Virus record (IMG/VR): IMGVR_UViG_3300029893_000001
Coordinates: 248,001 to 312,000 of that record
Origin: a virus
Length of the DNA: 64,000 nucleotides
Strand: one strand, 5' to 3'
Position numbers and translations under genes: made by a program. Of the stretch, positions 14,261 to 21,837 are shown in pieces. The notes beneath the pieces are model-generated. The model was not told where the DNA came from. It did no database searches and saw only the letters and a list, made by a program, of their open reading frames with translations. Each line of letters begins with the position of its first letter. Position 1 is the stretch's first letter.

Positions 14261-14956
14261 ATGAAGTTTCGCCTCCTTGCAGAAATGGGCTTCAAATCTA
14301 AGGTCGTGAAGCCGAACAAGTCGACGGAACGAGAGCTGAAGAACGCTCTGCGGAAATACATCCTCGACAACGACAAGGAAGCACTAACCGATCGTGTTGA
14401 GGGAATACTGTATCTCCTCGAACACGGAAAGTACAAGCACCTCATCGATCCCAGCCCACACGAATGGGCGTGGCGATTCATTGATGCAACAACTCCCAAA
14501 AAGCTTGAAAGCATCATCGGAAGAAAGCTGAAGTCGTCCAAAACGAGCCTCAAACTACCTCCGGGTACTCTGAATCCAGATGACCGCGGTCTTAGCAGTT
14601 GGACCGTTAATCCCAGGTCTCTCGTCTACAGCGGGTTCTTCAGTGTAGTCCCAAAGAACAGCAACTTGGCCTTGGTAAAAGCCAAGATTTCTGAAAACAG
14701 GTTCTTTGGGAACCCAGACGATTTGGTGAAACACCTAAAGTTCCCTAAGAAGTACTACGCCCCTGGGTACGCATTAGAGAGGGAAATTGTGGCAGTAGGT
14801 CCAGTTAAGTACGAAACTGGTGCATATCAGATGAGAGACAAGTCAAGAAGTCTCGAAGCTCAGGCGGTAGATCTTATCAACTTCCTAGACCCGCTGAACA
14901 ATAAAGCCGAAGAGTGGAATGAAGAGTATTATTTCCCGAACCTATGGGATGAATGA
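14261..14956 (+). CDS. Hypothetical protein, weakly ADP-ribosyltransferase-like
   Basis: 231 residues. The N-terminal 70 are helical. The middle shows RGLSSWTVNPRSLVYSG and the C-terminal part shows YALEREIVAVGPVK. The order SSWT, then a beta strand with ExE-like LEREI, is reminiscent of ADP-ribosyltransferases, whose active site has an S-T-S strand and an ExE turn. A conserved early Arg cannot be placed with confidence. The gene overlaps the spike start as ATGATGA. It could equally be a spike chaperone or an unrelated tail protein. Confidence 0.6.
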   Translation: MKFRLLAEMGFKSKVVKPNKSTERELKNALRKYILDNDKEALTDRVEGILYLLEHGKYKHLIDPSPHEWAWRFIDATTPKKLESIIGRKLKSSKTSLKLPPGTLNPDDRGLSSWTVNPRSLVYSGFFSVVPKNSNLALVKAKISENRFFGNPDDLVKHLKFPKKYYAPGYALEREIVAVGPVKYETGAYQMRDKSRSLEAQAVDLINFLDPLNNKAEEWNEEYYFPNLWDE

Positions 14957-16581
14957 TGCCTACAATAGCTATATCAAACACAACAAAAAATACCATATCA
15001 ATTGGATCGGTTATAGGGGCACTTAAACCAGGACAATCAAAAGTTTTAGAGTTAACAAGTGATGAATTAGAAAAAACACGAGAGCGCCTGGTACGACTAG
15101 AGAGTCTAGGCAGTATATCGGTAGAAGTTCTGTCAAACTCTGACTCACAAACTGCACCTGCGGCCAGAACCTATGGTGATGTTCACCTATATGTCGATGC
15201 ATCCACTGGTTCAGACGAAAATTCAGGATCAAAAGATGCTCCACTTGCTTCTTTGGTGGAAGTTGAAAAGAGGGTCCCCTTCTATGTAGACCATCCAGTA
15301 TTCATCCATGTTAGGCCACATCCAGGATCAGGCTATGATCCACCTACGTTCCGTGGAAGAATCTGTCATGCTAACATATATGTTATTGGTGAAGGATACA
15401 ACGTACTAGCGTCTGGCACTATTACCTCAAATCACAATTTGTTCCTGACTGTTGATATTGCGCCTGGTGCAGATGATGCGCTTCGTGGGAAGACGTTGGA
15501 AATCCTTGATGGTCCGCTAGCGACGGAGCGTCGAATACTAAGAACAAATGTCGGTACTGCAATTACCCCGCAGGTTGCATTTTCCACGTTGGTACCGCCA
15601 GGGAGTAAGTATCGCATCACAGAATCGACGGTTATAATCAATGCGCCAACTGGTCCAGCAGCTGATCCGACTCCTTCGCACTGGACTATATCCGAGGGTT
15701 GTGGATACGCGGGATCTGGTTATATCAACTCAGGCTTTAGGCAATCTACGCATGGTCTGGTATTGGTAAACTTAAAACTTCGAGCTACTGACAATATGCG
15801 TGCATCGTTTGCAGGCAATCTGATCATGTTTGGAATAGAGATTATTGGAACAGCCACAATCGCAGCGTTTGCAGGCTCGCAAGGAACATCACATTTGCAG
15901 ATAGGATGTGATACCACATTGCACATCGACGGTATAGCTGCGCGAGCGGCACTGGATCTAGGTGCTAAGACAGGCATAGCATGGGCTGCTTGGGGGATGT
16001 ATTGTACACTGTACCAGCTACACTTCAACAGTCTACAAGGTTTGAATATGCACGGACTCGATGCAGAGCTAGTGGTATTCTGGGGTTGCCATAGGGCATA
16101 TTTAACCGCATTTCGAATAACTAGCGGAATGAAGATATATGGCGAGATACAGAATGGTTCTTGTAACGTCTATGTGGACAGACACACGCAGTTTTTAGGA
16201 GATGCTAACACTAGCAATATTGAAGGATCTCTCGATCCTGTAGTCTACGTATATGGAACTCTAGCGACTTTGCACATCAACTGTAGCATTGTTTCACTAG
16301 CTAATACTACCGCGCTGTATGTAAGACGTGGCGCAAAAGTTGTTATTACTAGCGGAGGTGGTTTGCTCACCTTAGATTCTGGAACCGGTACTGCCGTGAA
16401 GGTAACACAGGGAGCCAGGGTTTGGATTGCAGAAGTACCTGGATATCAAGTTACCACTGTCGGCGCAGTTCAATGGCAAATCGGTACCAAGACACCGCTT
16501 ATTGCTACTGATGATGATTTTGTAGAGGATGGTGACCACGTAACCCATTCTGATGGGTCTCAAGTCATGTGGGTGATCTAA
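14956..16581 (+). CDS. Beta-helix tail spike, copy A
   Basis: 541 residues. Residues 1-60 form the attachment module shared with 9960-10334 and 17741-19360. From about 75 the sequence (DVHLYVDASTGSDENSGS, PLASLVEVEKRV, PVFIHVRPHPGSGY) matches the opening of right-handed beta-helix spikes, and the rest is repetitive short strands. Such proteins bind or cut surface polysaccharides. The start at 14956 is chosen because the paralogues begin MP; an ATG one codon earlier is also possible. The gene is visibly richer in A/T at third codon positions than its neighbours, suggesting recent exchange. Its stop is one base from the release-factor stop on the other strand. Confidence 0.8.
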   Translation: MPTIAISNTTKNTISIGSVIGALKPGQSKVLELTSDELEKTRERLVRLESLGSISVEVLSNSDSQTAPAARTYGDVHLYVDASTGSDENSGSKDAPLASLVEVEKRVPFYVDHPVFIHVRPHPGSGYDPPTFRGRICHANIYVIGEGYNVLASGTITSNHNLFLTVDIAPGADDALRGKTLEILDGPLATERRILRTNVGTAITPQVAFSTLVPPGSKYRITESTVIINAPTGPAADPTPSHWTISEGCGYAGSGYINSGFRQSTHGLVLVNLKLRATDNMRASFAGNLIMFGIEIIGTATIAAFAGSQGTSHLQIGCDTTLHIDGIAARAALDLGAKTGIAWAAWGMYCTLYQLHFNSLQGLNMHGLDAELVVFWGCHRAYLTAFRITSGMKIYGEIQNGSCNVYVDRHTQFLGDANTSNIEGSLDPVVYVYGTLATLHINCSIVSLANTTALYVRRGAKVVITSGGGLLTLDSGTGTAVKVTQGARVWIAEVPGYQVTTVGAVQWQIGTKTPLIATDDDFVEDGDHVTHSDGSQVMWVI

Positions 16582-16582
16582 T

Positions 16583-17270
16583 TTAGGTGGGCAAGAGACC
16601 ATCCCAATTACCTCTGATATAGTCCTTGTACCTTATTTTGCGGTCCGTACGATGATCAGTTACTTGTCCGTCTTGCTGACGAATAGTTCTGATCTTATCG
16701 CCTCTCATTCCAGAGCCGATCTGCTCACGACGCTTTGCGCCGCGCTCCTGTGCCTTCTTCGCGACTTGCATCTCGTGGATGCGAGCCCGAAGCAAACGAT
16801 ACGCTAAATCCCGGTTCTGGTGCTGACTGCGCTCGTTCTCAACTCGAACACGTACGCCAGTAGGGATGTGCGTCATCTGAACTGCCGATTCCGTTCGATT
16901 TCTGTGCTGTCCGCCAGCGCCAGAACCTCGGCAGGTTGTCCACTCAATGTCCCGCTCCTCGATGTGGAGTGTAGTCTCTGAGGGCTCCTCTAGCACAGCT
17001 ACGGTTACCGTTGAAGTTTGGACTCGTCCGCGCTTCTCGTTCGGCGGGATTCGTTGCCAACGATGGCCTCCCGCCTCCAACTCAAATGTCTTCTTTGCTC
17101 CCTTTCCACTCGCCTGAAAACTCAGAAATCCAGGGCGTTCCTCAATGAGGGTACACTCAAAGTCCCCTCCGGTCCATCAGCTTGGCGTAAATTCCAAACT
17201 GCTCATGAACCAAGGCCTTCGCATCGTCTCCGCCCTCTCCAGCACGGATCTCCACAATTACGTTTTCCAT
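16583..17270 (-). CDS. Peptide-chain release factor with programmed +1 frameshift
   Basis: Two overlapping frames join into one 228-residue release factor. The first frame starts at an ATG at 17270 (AAGG upstream), encodes 37 residues (ENVIVEIRAGEGGDD...LMDRRGL) and stops at TGA 17159-17157. Reading resumes in the +1 frame at GAG 17158 with LECTLIEERPG. The junction is CGG AGG GGA CTT TGA G: CTT TGA with GGAGG three bases before it, the layout of the prfB frameshift signal. Domain 3 has the catalytic SGAGGQH (GGQ 119-121), and domain 2 has HRWQRIPPNEKRGR, with PPN where RF1 has PxT and RF2 has SPF. Domain 1 is absent, as in RF-H proteins. The factor hydrolyses peptidyl-tRNA at stop codons. 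A sequencing error is possible but unlikely given the signal. Confidence 0.85.
17156..17171 (-). promoter_or_regulatory. RF2-type +1 frameshift signal
   Basis: Read leftward the site is CGGAGGGGACTTTGAG. The in-frame codons are CGG AGG GGA CTT TGA. GGAGG can pair with the 16S rRNA tail three bases before CTT, pulling the ribosome forward while TGA waits for release factor; the CTT tRNA then slips to TTT. E. coli prfB has AGGGGG, three bases, CTT TGA C. Only the base after TGA (G rather than C) differs in a meaningful position. Confidence 0.8.
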
Positions 17271-17271
17271 T

Positions 17272-17724
17272 TTACCCTTCCCAACGAGTACAACACCCGT
17301 AGAACTGAACCTTAGCTCGGTATACTGGTGTGTTATCGTTCTGTTTCGCGACAACAGCACAAAAGCCGGTATCGGAGTTCGCTTTCGACGGGGTGAAGTG
17401 GGCACAGTTCCCACACATTGTCCCCTCAGAGGGGATGTCCGTCTCAAAACCAGATGTTTCGGGCGATACTTCTTGAATAGTACCGTGATTTGGAAGTTCC
17501 TGAAGTGAGCGTAGTGGGCGTCCAGTGACGTGATATCCGCACACAGCGTTCCCAGGAACGCTAAGATCTTTCGGCAGGATAGCACACCTTTCCTCGGCTC
17601 GTGCCCACATAAAGCAATTGGCGCACTTACGTCCTTGCTTCTTCAAGGCTCCTTCCATGGGCTGCACATAAAGCACGGACCAAGGCTCAGGGACCACTCT
17701 GAGAGGTAGCTTCATCTTGGGCAT
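17272..17724 (-). CDS. Cys-rich zinc-binding-like protein
   Basis: 150 residues with two similar Cys clusters: CANCFMWARAEERCAI, with a Cys in VCGYH, and later CGNCAHFTPS, TGFCAVV and GCCTRW. The doubled CxxC...C pattern suggests two zinc or iron-sulfur sites arising by duplication. It ends one base before the release-factor start, so the two are co-transcribed. It also directly follows the spike gene on the same strand. No known family assigned. Confidence 0.7.
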   Translation of the reverse strand: MPKMKLPLRVVPEPWSVLYVQPMEGALKKQGRKCANCFMWARAEERCAILPKDLSVPGNAVCGYHVTGRPLRSLQELPNHGTIQEVSPETSGFETDIPSEGTMCGNCAHFTPSKANSDTGFCAVVAKQNDNTPVYRAKVQFYGCCTRWEG

Positions 17725-17740: not shown

Positions 17741-19360
17741 TTAGGTGGTGCGTTGAATTATCGAGTTATCTGACGCTACGATTGCATCCCCGTTGTTAGG
17801 GATGTCAACGAGAGCCGCTACTGTTGGGACTGGTCCAATCTCTAACTGGTTTCCAGACGCACTGATTCCTACCGCAGACCGAACCTGAACGCTAGATCCC
17901 TCTGTTGCCTTTACACCGGTCACAGCAGTAATACTCACACCCTGAAATAGTTGCGCGTGAGCGCCTTTTTCCAGGCGTACGCCAGTACCTGTAGTAGACG
18001 TAACATACGCCTCCACTAGATAAACGCGAGCACCTACCCCCAGTGCTCGAATCGCGTCGCCTGTCTCGTTGTGAACGTACAACTGTAAGTCTGGGAGGTA
18101 CTGCTTGCCATCAATGCGAGCAACGGACGACTTCAACGTGCCGAAAACAGTGATACCTCCAGTGTGGATATTTCCACCCCGGAATTCTACGTCAGAGTCA
18201 AATATCGACATGCTAGAAGCGACCAACGCGTAGAACCAAACACTATTTGTCAGGCTTATCGTGAGGCCCTGCGCGCTAAGACCCCAGCCGACCCAAGCTT
18301 TAGGGTGCACTCCAGCAAGGCGGGTACCAACATTTGCCAGCTCTTCATAGATCTGATTTTGTGGAGGTCCGGAAATCTGATCGATCGCCACCGCTACGCT
18401 TCCGCCGGTAAGAATTACGGGTGCAGCAAATTCGCACCCGAATATCCGAGTATTGCGTCCGCAATGGATATGCTTTGTGGCTCCGCTATGAACGAACTTG
18501 AAATTGACAAACTGAATTCCTGGGCGGGTTCTACTATCCCCGTTGAACCCATAGGTCACGTCGTCTCCTCGACTGCCCTCTATTTCCCAGTAGTTTAGGT
18601 GGGGTGTCTGATCGAGATTGATTTGTGTAACGGGCTCAACAATCCGAAAGCTGTCGCCTGGAGCGATCGTAGATCCCTCCCACAAACAAGCAGGGATGAT
18701 GTCGGTGTCTGTGTTTGTTTTGATAGTACGACGGTACGTGGCCGCTAAGCCCGACAAGACCTCAATCGTCTTGCCTCGATACGTATCGACGCCCAACCCT
18801 GCAGGTGCTACGCACTTCGTGTGGAGCGTACCTGTCTGCGCAGTCGAGGGCCCGAACAGAACATTCAAACCGTCGTTGTTTGTCCCGCCAGAATCAGCAA
18901 CGATGTCAATTGTACTACGCAGCACTCTGGGCCGGAAATGCGGAGGAGCGTAGCCAGCCCCAGCGTGAGGGGCTACGTGGACGACCACAGGGTGTGCAAC
19001 GAAATCTGGAATTCTACTTTCGGCTTCGATTAGTGTCGCGAGCGGCTCATTTGGCGAGTGGCCGTCATTGGTGTCCGAACCCCTCACGGCATCTACCCAG
19101 ATGTCCATCCGGGCAAACGTTTTTGTGGCGCTGTACGCAGCAATGGCAAAGTCGGCAGTGTCACCAACATCCTCTGGATTCTGACGAACAGTCCAATGAA
19201 TTAACTGTTTCTCCTGAAGCTTGTTCAATGAGTCAGAAAGTGCCTCTAACTCCCGAACGTTGATAGACCTCACGAGTGTTTTTCCGGGCCTTAGGATGCC
19301 GAGAGGGACACCAGGGCTAATGCTCTGTTGTGAAATATTCTTGACAACGATTACAGGCAT
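17741..19360 (-). CDS. Beta-helix tail spike, copy B
   Basis: 539 residues, a full-length paralogue of the 14956-16581 spike on the opposite strand. The N-terminal module (MPVIVVKNISQQSISPGVPL) is shared. The beta-helix begins with DIWVDAVRGSDTNDGHS, PLATLIEAESRIPDFV and PVVVHVAPHAGAGY, closely parallel to copy A. The downstream helix rungs diverge strongly. It probably binds or degrades a different surface glycan, giving the virion two receptor specificities. Its codon use is like the rest of the genome, unlike copy A. Confidence 0.8.
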   Translation of the reverse strand: MPVIVVKNISQQSISPGVPLGILRPGKTLVRSINVRELEALSDSLNKLQEKQLIHWTVRQNPEDVGDTADFAIAAYSATKTFARMDIWVDAVRGSDTNDGHSPNEPLATLIEAESRIPDFVAHPVVVHVAPHAGAGYAPPHFRPRVLRSTIDIVADSGGTNNDGLNVLFGPSTAQTGTLHTKCVAPAGLGVDTYRGKTIEVLSGLAATYRRTIKTNTDTDIIPACLWEGSTIAPGDSFRIVEPVTQINLDQTPHLNYWEIEGSRGDDVTYGFNGDSRTRPGIQFVNFKFVHSGATKHIHCGRNTRIFGCEFAAPVILTGGSVAVAIDQISGPPQNQIYEELANVGTRLAGVHPKAWVGWGLSAQGLTISLTNSVWFYALVASSMSIFDSDVEFRGGNIHTGGITVFGTLKSSVARIDGKQYLPDLQLYVHNETGDAIRALGVGARVYLVEAYVTSTTGTGVRLEKGAHAQLFQGVSITAVTGVKATEGSSVQVRSAVGISASGNQLEIGPVPTVAALVDIPNNGDAIVASDNSIIQRTT

Positions 19361-20400: not shown

Positions 20401-20437
20401 CGCTCGGCTTTTGCAACACCCGAGCTGCGGAGGAAAC

Positions 20438-20794
20438 ATGTCACTTGCGCTATGGGACCCGTGGATTTCTCGGAACTTGTTTAACCGCCCAGTCTTCGAT
20501 ACACCGGTGAACGACGACTACGTTACAGACAACGAGTCGTCGTTCACTATTGAAGTAGAGATGCCTGGGATGAGGGCCGAAGACGTCACCATTGACGTAC
20601 AAAAAGGCATGCTTTTGATCAATGCAGAGAGGAAAAACGGCCCTCGTACTCGAAAGGTTAAGCGAGCCTACCGGTTGCCGGATACGATCAACACAGACGC
20701 CATCGAGGCGTCTCTCACTGACGGCATCCTGACTCTCACACTGCCGAAACAGGAACCGCCAGGGACACGAAAAATACTAGTCAAGCCGAACTGA
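20438..20794 (+). CDS. Small heat-shock protein, Hsp20/alpha-crystallin
   Basis: 118 residues with an alpha-crystallin domain: FTIEVEMPGMRAEDVTIDV, GMLLINAERK, RAYRLPDTINTDAIEASL and the terminal DGILTLTLPKQ. Small heat-shock proteins hold unfolding proteins for refolding. Phage versions are frequent in cyanophages and other large phages and may help virion assembly. The ATG has GGAGG six bases before it. The gene stands alone on the plus strand with its own promoter and terminator, so it is controlled separately from its neighbours. The N-terminal extension is short and the IxI-type tail is weak (KILVKPN). Confidence 0.93.
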   Translation: MSLALWDPWISRNLFNRPVFDTPVNDDYVTDNESSFTIEVEMPGMRAEDVTIDVQKGMLLINAERKNGPRTRKVKRAYRLPDTINTDAIEASLTDGILTLTLPKQEPPGTRKILVKPN

Positions 20795-20833
20795 AAAGGC
20801 CTGGTTGGCGATCCCAACCAGGCCTTTTCAGTT
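20789..20833. terminator. Bidirectional terminator between hsp20 and nadE
   Basis: AACTGAAAAGGCCTGGTTGG and its exact complement CCAACCAGGCCTTTTCAGTT flank a short loop. The stem is perfect, with A- and T-tracts on its two sides, and it overlaps the end of both convergent genes. Confidence 0.9.
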
Positions 20834-21791
20834 AGAGGACGAAGAAGTTGATCTCGTCGCGCGTGGGTCCTGGCGGTGGTAGCACCTTGTGCCTAGAAGC
20901 CTTTTCCATGTGGAAGGCTTTCTCGATGATTTCGAATTGACGTTCAGTGAATTTGCCGTCGTAACGCTTCCTGAAGCCATCCATCCCACTAAGACGTGTT
21001 TCGCCGTCTTCAGCCCACTCCCATGCACGAAGGTAACCGTCAGGATCCGACTCGAAATTACCGCGTTCATAAAGGATGTTTAGCTTATAGTTCATACGAG
21101 TAACCCATTCGATCTCTTCGTAAGTGATCCCAAGCTCACCCTCGTCCGTCTGCTCGGCCCCGGAACCCCACAAATCTGCTGTGGGCGTCGCGTCGATGAC
21201 GGACTGGGGAAGGCCCAGGTACGCGGCAAGCTGTCGAACTTCCGACTTGTGAAGCCCTACGATGGGGTTGTTGTCCACAGCTCCATCCCCACGCTTGTTG
21301 TAGTACCGGAAGATCTCATCCTCATCCCGGTTTCCAGTTCCGTAGATGAGAGCGTCGTGGCACTTGCTGACGTAGTCCAACACCGGAGTACGCAAACAAG
21401 ATCTGAGCGAGCCTTCGCAGAATTTCTTGTGGTCGGGATCTTCCATGTCATGAAGGCCCAGGAGCTTGCGGAAGGCACCCTCCTGATGCGCAAGCTGATC
21501 GACAATCGCGCTGAACGCGTACGCGAGGTCGACGGTGAAGCAATGAATGGTTCCGCGAACAGACTGCGAACGAACCACCTCTCTTGCTCTCTCCAAAGAC
21601 TCAGGACGGCTATGGCAGGGCATCATAACAGCCACCGTCTTCGGAAAAGCCCGACAGCACAAAGCGAACACTACAGCGCTGTCGATTCCTCCGGAAAGCC
21701 CAACGCAGCCATTCTTCGTGCCAGACTGCTTTGCCTGGTCTTGCATCCAGGCGACCAAGTACGTAGTAAGCCCCTCAAGGTTCGTAATCAT
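20832..21791 (-). CDS. nadE: NAD synthetase, ammonia-type
   Basis: 319 residues. SGGIDSAV (residues 33-40) is the ATP-pyrophosphatase P-loop. GTGNRDEDE matches the NadE deamido-NAD-binding motif, and VGLHKSEVRQLAAYLGLP and ITYEEIEWV are also typical. It makes NAD from nicotinic-acid adenine dinucleotide using ammonia. No glutaminase domain is present. The start at 21791 has AAGGAG upstream; an ATG five codons earlier lacks one. It follows a terminator and is followed by another, so it is nearly a single-gene unit. It may maintain NAD during infection or offset NAD-depleting defences; that last point is inference. Confidence 0.93.
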   Translation of the reverse strand: MITNLEGLTTYLVAWMQDQAKQSGTKNGCVGLSGGIDSAVVFALCCRAFPKTVAVMMPCHSRPESLERAREVVRSQSVRGTIHCFTVDLAYAFSAIVDQLAHQEGAFRKLLGLHDMEDPDHKKFCEGSLRSCLRTPVLDYVSKCHDALIYGTGNRDEDEIFRYYNKRGDGAVDNNPIVGLHKSEVRQLAAYLGLPQSVIDATPTADLWGSGAEQTDEGELGITYEEIEWVTRMNYKLNILYERGNFESDPDGYLRAWEWAEDGETRLSGMDGFRKRYDGKFTERQFEIIEKAFHMEKASRHKVLPPPGPTRDEINFFVL

Positions 21792-21804
21792 CTCAGACTC
21801 CTTC

Positions 21805-21837
21805 AAAAGAGAACGGCCACCTTTTAGATGGCCGTTC
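21805..21837 (-). terminator. Rho-independent terminator
   Basis: Read leftward, GAACGGCCA, loop TCTAAAAGG, TGGCCGTTC is followed by TCTTTT. It ends the transcript of the 21864-22505 gene just before nadE. Confidence 0.8.

Follow-up and report, generated by a model that had tools for sequence, protein, structure and literature searches.

A 64,000-nucleotide (nt) stretch of a virus genome (the window; positions 248,001 to 312,000 of the 392,328-base IMG/VR record IMGVR_UViG_3300029893_000001) contains a release factor (RF) gene split between two reading frames, which very probably encodes a compact phage release factor of the RF1 lineage that has lost domain 1 and is made only by programmed +1 frameshifting. 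The +1 shift is found at the same codon in 73 non-redundant relatives, and chance and sequencing error are therefore excluded: the split of the frame is real. Judged from the sequences of the family, the early stop codon at the shift site most likely acts as a sensor of the infected cell's capacity for termination. The RF2 frameshift is a textbook case of translational autoregulation, and to our knowledge, such a frameshift has been described among bacterial release factors only for prfB. The prfB cassette consists of a Shine-Dalgarno (SD)-like element, a 3-nt spacer, CTT, and an in-frame stop, mostly with C at position +4 (PMC12421855, PMC5009743). In every genome of the survey (8,164 had the shift), RF2 could read the shift-site stop, which was never UAG, and a search of prfA for a programmed shift found none (PMC12421855).

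The Gene and Its Shift Site

The gene lies on the minus strand at 16583..17270 and, read with a +1 shift, gives a protein of 228 amino acids (aa) with PCRF and RF-1 domains. Frame 0 runs from an ATG at 17270-17268, a start common to the relatives, through 37 codons to a TGA (17157..17270) and would yield a truncated peptide if termination won. At the site, frame 0 reads ...CGG AGG GGA CTT TGA G, in which the SD-like GGAGG (17166..17170) stands 3 nt before the slip codon, the spacing of prfB; CTT (17160..17162) is codon 37 and TGA (17157..17159) is codon 38. Skipping one base at CTT-T, the first T of the TGA (17159), opens the 228-aa frame, whose +1 part (16583..17158) continues from GAG at 17158 to the terminal TAA at 16585-16583 and supplies the rest of domain 2, domain 3 with the GGQ catalytic motif (residues 119-121; 16907..16915), and domain 4. 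The window has a single copy of the sequence GGAGGNNNCTTTGA, placed exactly where the two frames join, and that copy is the only one on either strand of the whole 392,328-base record. These coordinates and frames agree with the first-pass annotation, which had described a two-frame release factor joined at CTT TGA with GGAGG three bases upstream, and the join that it gave, RRGL-ECTL, is the one produced by the translated frames. Rfam gave no match in the gene region.

At such a site, peptidyl-tRNA-Leu would slip from CUU to UUU, and translation would go on in the +1 frame. The factor would be made when the release factor that reads the stop is in short supply, which is host RF2 at UGA and RF1 at UAG, or when ribosomes are unable to terminate. 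We infer that shifting is efficient, that termination at the stop behind CTT competes with it, and that its purpose is to sense and restore termination capacity in infection.

Conservation and Nucleotide-Level Selection of the Cassette

Relatives were sought in phage records, bacterial genomes, and plasmids by peptide patterns outside the shift site. The first rounds gave a set of 74 loci, the window included; later rounds added more, and near-copy removal left 73 non-redundant frameshift genes, which form 72 clusters at 90% identity and 52 at 70% and have a median pairwise identity of 52%. Frame 0 closes at the same codon after CTT in the 74 loci, with the +1 frame leading on into the GGQ part; the slip codon is CTT in every frameshift member, with a stop directly behind it in 73 of 73. 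Carriers include huge phages, an uncultured phage record of 485 kb (LR745208; locus L008), and Myxococcota genomes, where matches of this kind are rare (3 of 284 genomes; the shift was read in two, the third being L266). One carrier, the complete chromosome of Minicystis rosea (L088), comes from an independent sequencing source and counts in favor of a real shift.

In 56 of the 74 loci, exactly 3 nt lie between the end of an SD-like motif and CTT, and the base after the stop (+4) is C in 55 of the 74. Mean pairing with the anti-SD sequence is −8.1 kcal/mol, compared with −3.57 ± 0.31 kcal/mol (standard deviation) when these codons were recoded synonymously; among 200 such recodings, the lowest value was −4.47 kcal/mol. 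The motif is also kept where the residues differ, with SLER, TQEC, or AQEG in place of ARRG. The SD-CTT-stop layout is thus under nucleotide-level selection. The first-pass annotation had recognized a prfB-type layout of SD-like element, CTT slip, and stop in a viral gene and had held that homologs without the stop and the signal would speak against it; when the relatives were examined, the layout proved to be family-wide as well as selected.

An RF1-Type Factor without Domain 1

In Pfam, the joined protein matches positions 100-194 of 194 of the PCRF profile and 3-116 of 116 of RF-1. Among the NCBIfam models, TIGR00019 (prfA) scores 225 bits, prfB 149, and prfH 97, the last well below the TIGR03072 threshold of 166.65 bits for PrfH. 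The TIGR00019 match begins at profile position 112 of 361, that is, after domain 1, and the score is under the full-length cutoff of that model because domain 1 is missing. On a tree made by a quick method, in which many inner branches are weak, the whole family forms one clade among RF1s (Shimodaira-Hasegawa-like approximate likelihood ratio test 98), whereas the position of PrfH on the tree is meaningless (branch 8.2). In an AlphaFold2 model (predicted local distance difference test 89.5, predicted template modeling score 0.75), the shifted protein adopts the full fold of RF1 domains 2-4, and its best Protein Data Bank matches are ribosome-bound RF1, with template modeling (TM) scores up to 0.94 compared with 0.67 for PrfH. 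Codon 37 falls in the model between helix 14-34 and strand 38-45, at the alpha5-beta turn of domain 2, so that the terminated product comprises only the first strand and helix of that domain. The start of the profile match and the structure model together uphold the earlier proposal that domain 1 is absent and that the shift lies inside domain 2.

The RF1 anticodon residues Q185, PxT, and T198 are largely kept in the family. At the PxT place, nearly all relatives have PPT, PPN, or SPT, with PPT in most and PPN in the window (residues 75-77; 17039..17047), where RF2 has SPF. The protein accordingly has the lineage, PxT-type motif, and GGQ domain of RF1 but not its domain 1. NCBIfam scores, tree, anticodon residues, and structure match all relate it to RF1 and not to RF2, a correction to the first-pass annotation, which had spoken of an RF2-style frameshift. 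The glutamate of GxxE, involved in first-base reading (window residue 16 or its neighbor), is Asp in nearly all members, whether or not they carry the stop. The PxT recognition loop is about four residues shorter in five loci (L007, L008, L040, L055, and L084) that keep the shift site.

Identity of the Shift-Site Stop

The shift-site stop is UGA in 57 of the 73 non-redundant relatives, UAG in 14, and UAA in 2. UAG is scattered on the tree, with 13 changes, at least six of which are forced by well-supported branches, and is as scattered as shuffled labels. No clear match between stop choice and anticodon motif was found across the family. Because the anticodon residues are RF1-like, a UGA site would report host RF2 and not the factor itself, and such a site in an RF1-type gene is probably a form of cross-sensing. 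The 14 UAG stops would be self-readable by an RF1-like product, and these sites would report RF1 or the factor itself. We know of no bacterial system that senses RF1 as the UAG form would. The response to UGA-terminating activity proposed in the first-pass annotation is accordingly too narrow, the stop being UAG or UAA in about a fifth of the relatives.

Relatives with an In-Frame UGA

In a sister clade, the RF gene is a single continuous frame with an early TGA and no shift. This TGA is aligned to window residue 37 in 19 members, a residue that is Trp in all RF1 references used, and the remaining Trp codons of the 19 members are all TGG. Across the 33 members with in-frame TGA, there are 38 TGA and 5 TGG codons up to position 52 and 0 TGA and 67 TGG codons beyond it, counts for which the position-52 cutoff was picked after the data had been seen and in which the rows are related. 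If UGA were misread as Trp, the residue found in RF1 would be restored. The contigs of the 19-member set use TGA as an ordinary stop, a conclusion drawn from three observations: Pfam domains in neighboring genes end before the TGAs (six proteins tested), a TGA stands just after the conserved RF C-terminus in five members (L168, L227, L229, L233, and L248), and two of the set are complete alphaproteobacterial plasmids (L168 and L170). On the same grounds, genetic code 4 was rejected for this main subclade. A homology-based TGA/TGG count was dropped as a test of the code because shadow open reading frames (ORFs) gave the same ratio in controls. No tRNA with a UCA anticodon was found near the in-frame-TGA genes.

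Two loci nested in the frameshift clade (L014 and L224) have CTA or CTC followed by TGA CTG with the frame unbroken, an arrangement that suggests a shift converted into an in-frame stop. A sister clade with an in-frame UGA at a neighboring Trp codon speaks for selection on the stop itself, and the comparison argues that the early stop is conserved and the way round it changes. An early stop is present in 106 of 113 family members.

Several further observations concern these relatives. In seven huge-phage rows (L009, L010, L012, L013, L069, L086, and L254), the RF gene alone has in-frame TGA, once or twice between positions 39 and 52, and its other Trp codons are TGG; TGA may be recoded in these rows (at positions 39, 44, and 52). 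L254 also has a tRNA with a CUA anticodon, called tRNA-Pyl. The megaplasmids Rhizobium leguminosarum pRlX5 and Bosea pBSY19_1 (L168:4001-4700; L170:4001-4700) each encode the short RF with one in-frame TGA, and the Bosea record annotates a "hypothetical protein" over it on the other strand. A tRNA-Trp(CCA) gene lies close downstream of the in-frame-UGA RF gene in two loci (L247:1511-1587 and L255:2220-2295).

Genomic Setting

The RF gene lies inside tRNA arrays in many phage loci (L016, L025, L037, L046, L049, L059, and L071) and thus appears as part of a translation kit. These arrays contain 35 tRNA or transfer-messenger RNA (tmRNA) genes in L016, 34 in L059, and 25 in both L046 and L071, and up to 34-35 genes are packed into 10.7 kb around the RF. 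The tmRNA gene adjoins the short RF in L016 and L025, and tRNA-Leu(GAG), a CUU reader, is often in the array with it. No RtcB gene was found in the 392-kb virus record, and a partnership of the short RF with RtcB was rejected on that account; no neighboring gene conserved across all loci was found. An RNA-ligase-like protein (KYDGSNLR) is encoded close to the short RF in 7 loci, and 12 loci have a NADAR-like protein there; L017, L022, L074, L076, and L078 are loci with such neighbors. In M. rosea, a nucleotidyltransferase-like ORF lies directly upstream of the shifted RF (L088:3953-4933) in an otherwise ordinary chromosomal setting.

In the window, a Cys-rich 150-aa ORF with two similar Cys-rich stretches (17272..17724, minus strand) stops just before the RF ATG (TAA-A-ATG), and the two genes are possibly translationally coupled. 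Similar proteins of about 540 aa, in opposite orientations, flank the RF gene and this upstream ORF (14953-16581, plus strand, and 17741-19360, minus strand). NAD synthase-like (20832-21806, minus strand) and Hsp20-like (20411-20794, plus strand) genes lie nearby.

Discussion

On balance, we lean toward a joint reading in which the family is built round an early stop (codons 37-38, in a few members 39-52) that would act as a gauge of termination capacity and is bypassed by at least two mechanisms: a +1 shift at CTT, before UGA, UAG, or UAA, or readthrough of UGA at a Trp codon conserved in RF1. Four observations weigh against a factor made by programmed shifting in response to termination. No recognizable SD-like motif is present in 9 of the 74 loci. 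The identity of the stop does not track the stop use of neighboring genes (p = 0.25), a result that does not support control of the shift-site stop by local stop usage. RF1-type anticodon residues combined with a UGA site would not close a simple autoregulatory loop of the RF2 type. Finally, the frame is open in seven relatives, four of them basal and three from within the frameshift clade, and some lineages can thus do without the shift.

The best surviving alternative, which we nevertheless regard as unlikely, is that the shift is programmed but the product is a PrfH-like ribosome-rescue factor, the stop serving to detect ribosomes that are unable to terminate (damaged or RF-trapped) at any stop. 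Domain 1 is missing, as it is from PrfH (PMC1586002), and the stop flips between UGA and UAG about 13 times without a clear change of anticodon motif. A rescue role would also suit the shortened PxT loop of the five loci that keep the shift and the Asp that replaces the GxxE glutamate in nearly all members. However, the affinity to RF1 over PrfH is clear both in profile scores and in structure, the RF1 stop-reading residues are kept in most members, RtcB is absent from the phage genome, and no partner gene is common to all loci.

Less probable still is a constitutive shift that sets a low, fixed level of the factor and is unresponsive to release-factor activity. The varying identity of the stop is easily explained if a pause suffices, and some members are without the SD-like element, both of which would fit. 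Yet the invariant stop right after CTT is what makes prfB shifting termination-dependent (PMC12421855), and the in-frame UGA of the sister clade would likewise tie expression to termination. Internal initiation, in which ribosomes would bind at GGAGG to make a shorter protein from the downstream frame, is very improbable. GGAGG is a good SD sequence, but in 65 of 72 loci the first five +1-frame codons beyond the slip codon include no ATG, GTG, or TTG, so the SD-like element does not serve this purpose. Initiation there would also leave the SD-CTT-stop spacing unconserved, and the product would be missing the beginning of domain 2, a part conserved in frame 0. An error in sequencing or assembly, or a chance frameshift in a pseudogene, would account for a single sequence through one extra base. 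It is already refuted: 73 divergent genes, taken from many assemblies and one complete bacterial genome, share the position, the slip codon, and mostly the SD-like element, and the frames on either side of the site are open and conserved.

The gauge of termination capacity has its nearest parallel in prfB, which shares the cassette, its place early in the gene, and a class-I release factor as product. The phage protein differs in being of RF1 lineage and without domain 1, and its site, at codon 37, follows helix alpha5 within domain 2, whereas that of prfB precedes domain 1 (codon 26). The SD consensus is CGGAGGGGT in the phage family and AGGGGG in prfB, the UAG and UAA stops contrast with the always RF2-readable stop of prfB, and the phage-family cassette, unlike that of prfB, is mainly in large phages. 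The cassette most likely arose separately from that of prfB, since the site sits in sequence homologous to RF1 domain 2. The closest lineage is prfA, with which the protein shares the PxT-type motif, Q185, T198, GGQ, and the close structural match; it departs from prfA in the loss of domain 1, the change of the GxxE Glu to Asp, and the frameshift. PrfH (RFH), which occurs with RtcB, is likewise a class-I factor of similar length without domain 1, but the phage factor scores much lower to it than to RF1 and lacks RtcB, and PrfH differs in its anticodon region and has no described frameshift. RF1/RF2 genes have been noted in huge phages, the same kind of virus, in a text that does not mention frameshifting (Al-Shayeb et al., PMC7162821). 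Our literature search, whose coverage excluded subscription papers and preprints, turned up no account of frameshifting, or of an in-frame stop, in the release factor gene of a phage.

The same cassette thus appears to have arisen a second time, in another lineage, at another position in the protein, in viruses, and with UAG variants that RF2 cannot read, and a sister clade appears to use readthrough in place of the shift. In annotation, genes of this type are easily mistaken for pseudogenes or split ORFs. The family provides numerous natural replicates with which to test why release factors gate themselves by stop codons, and it suggests that large phages monitor host termination.
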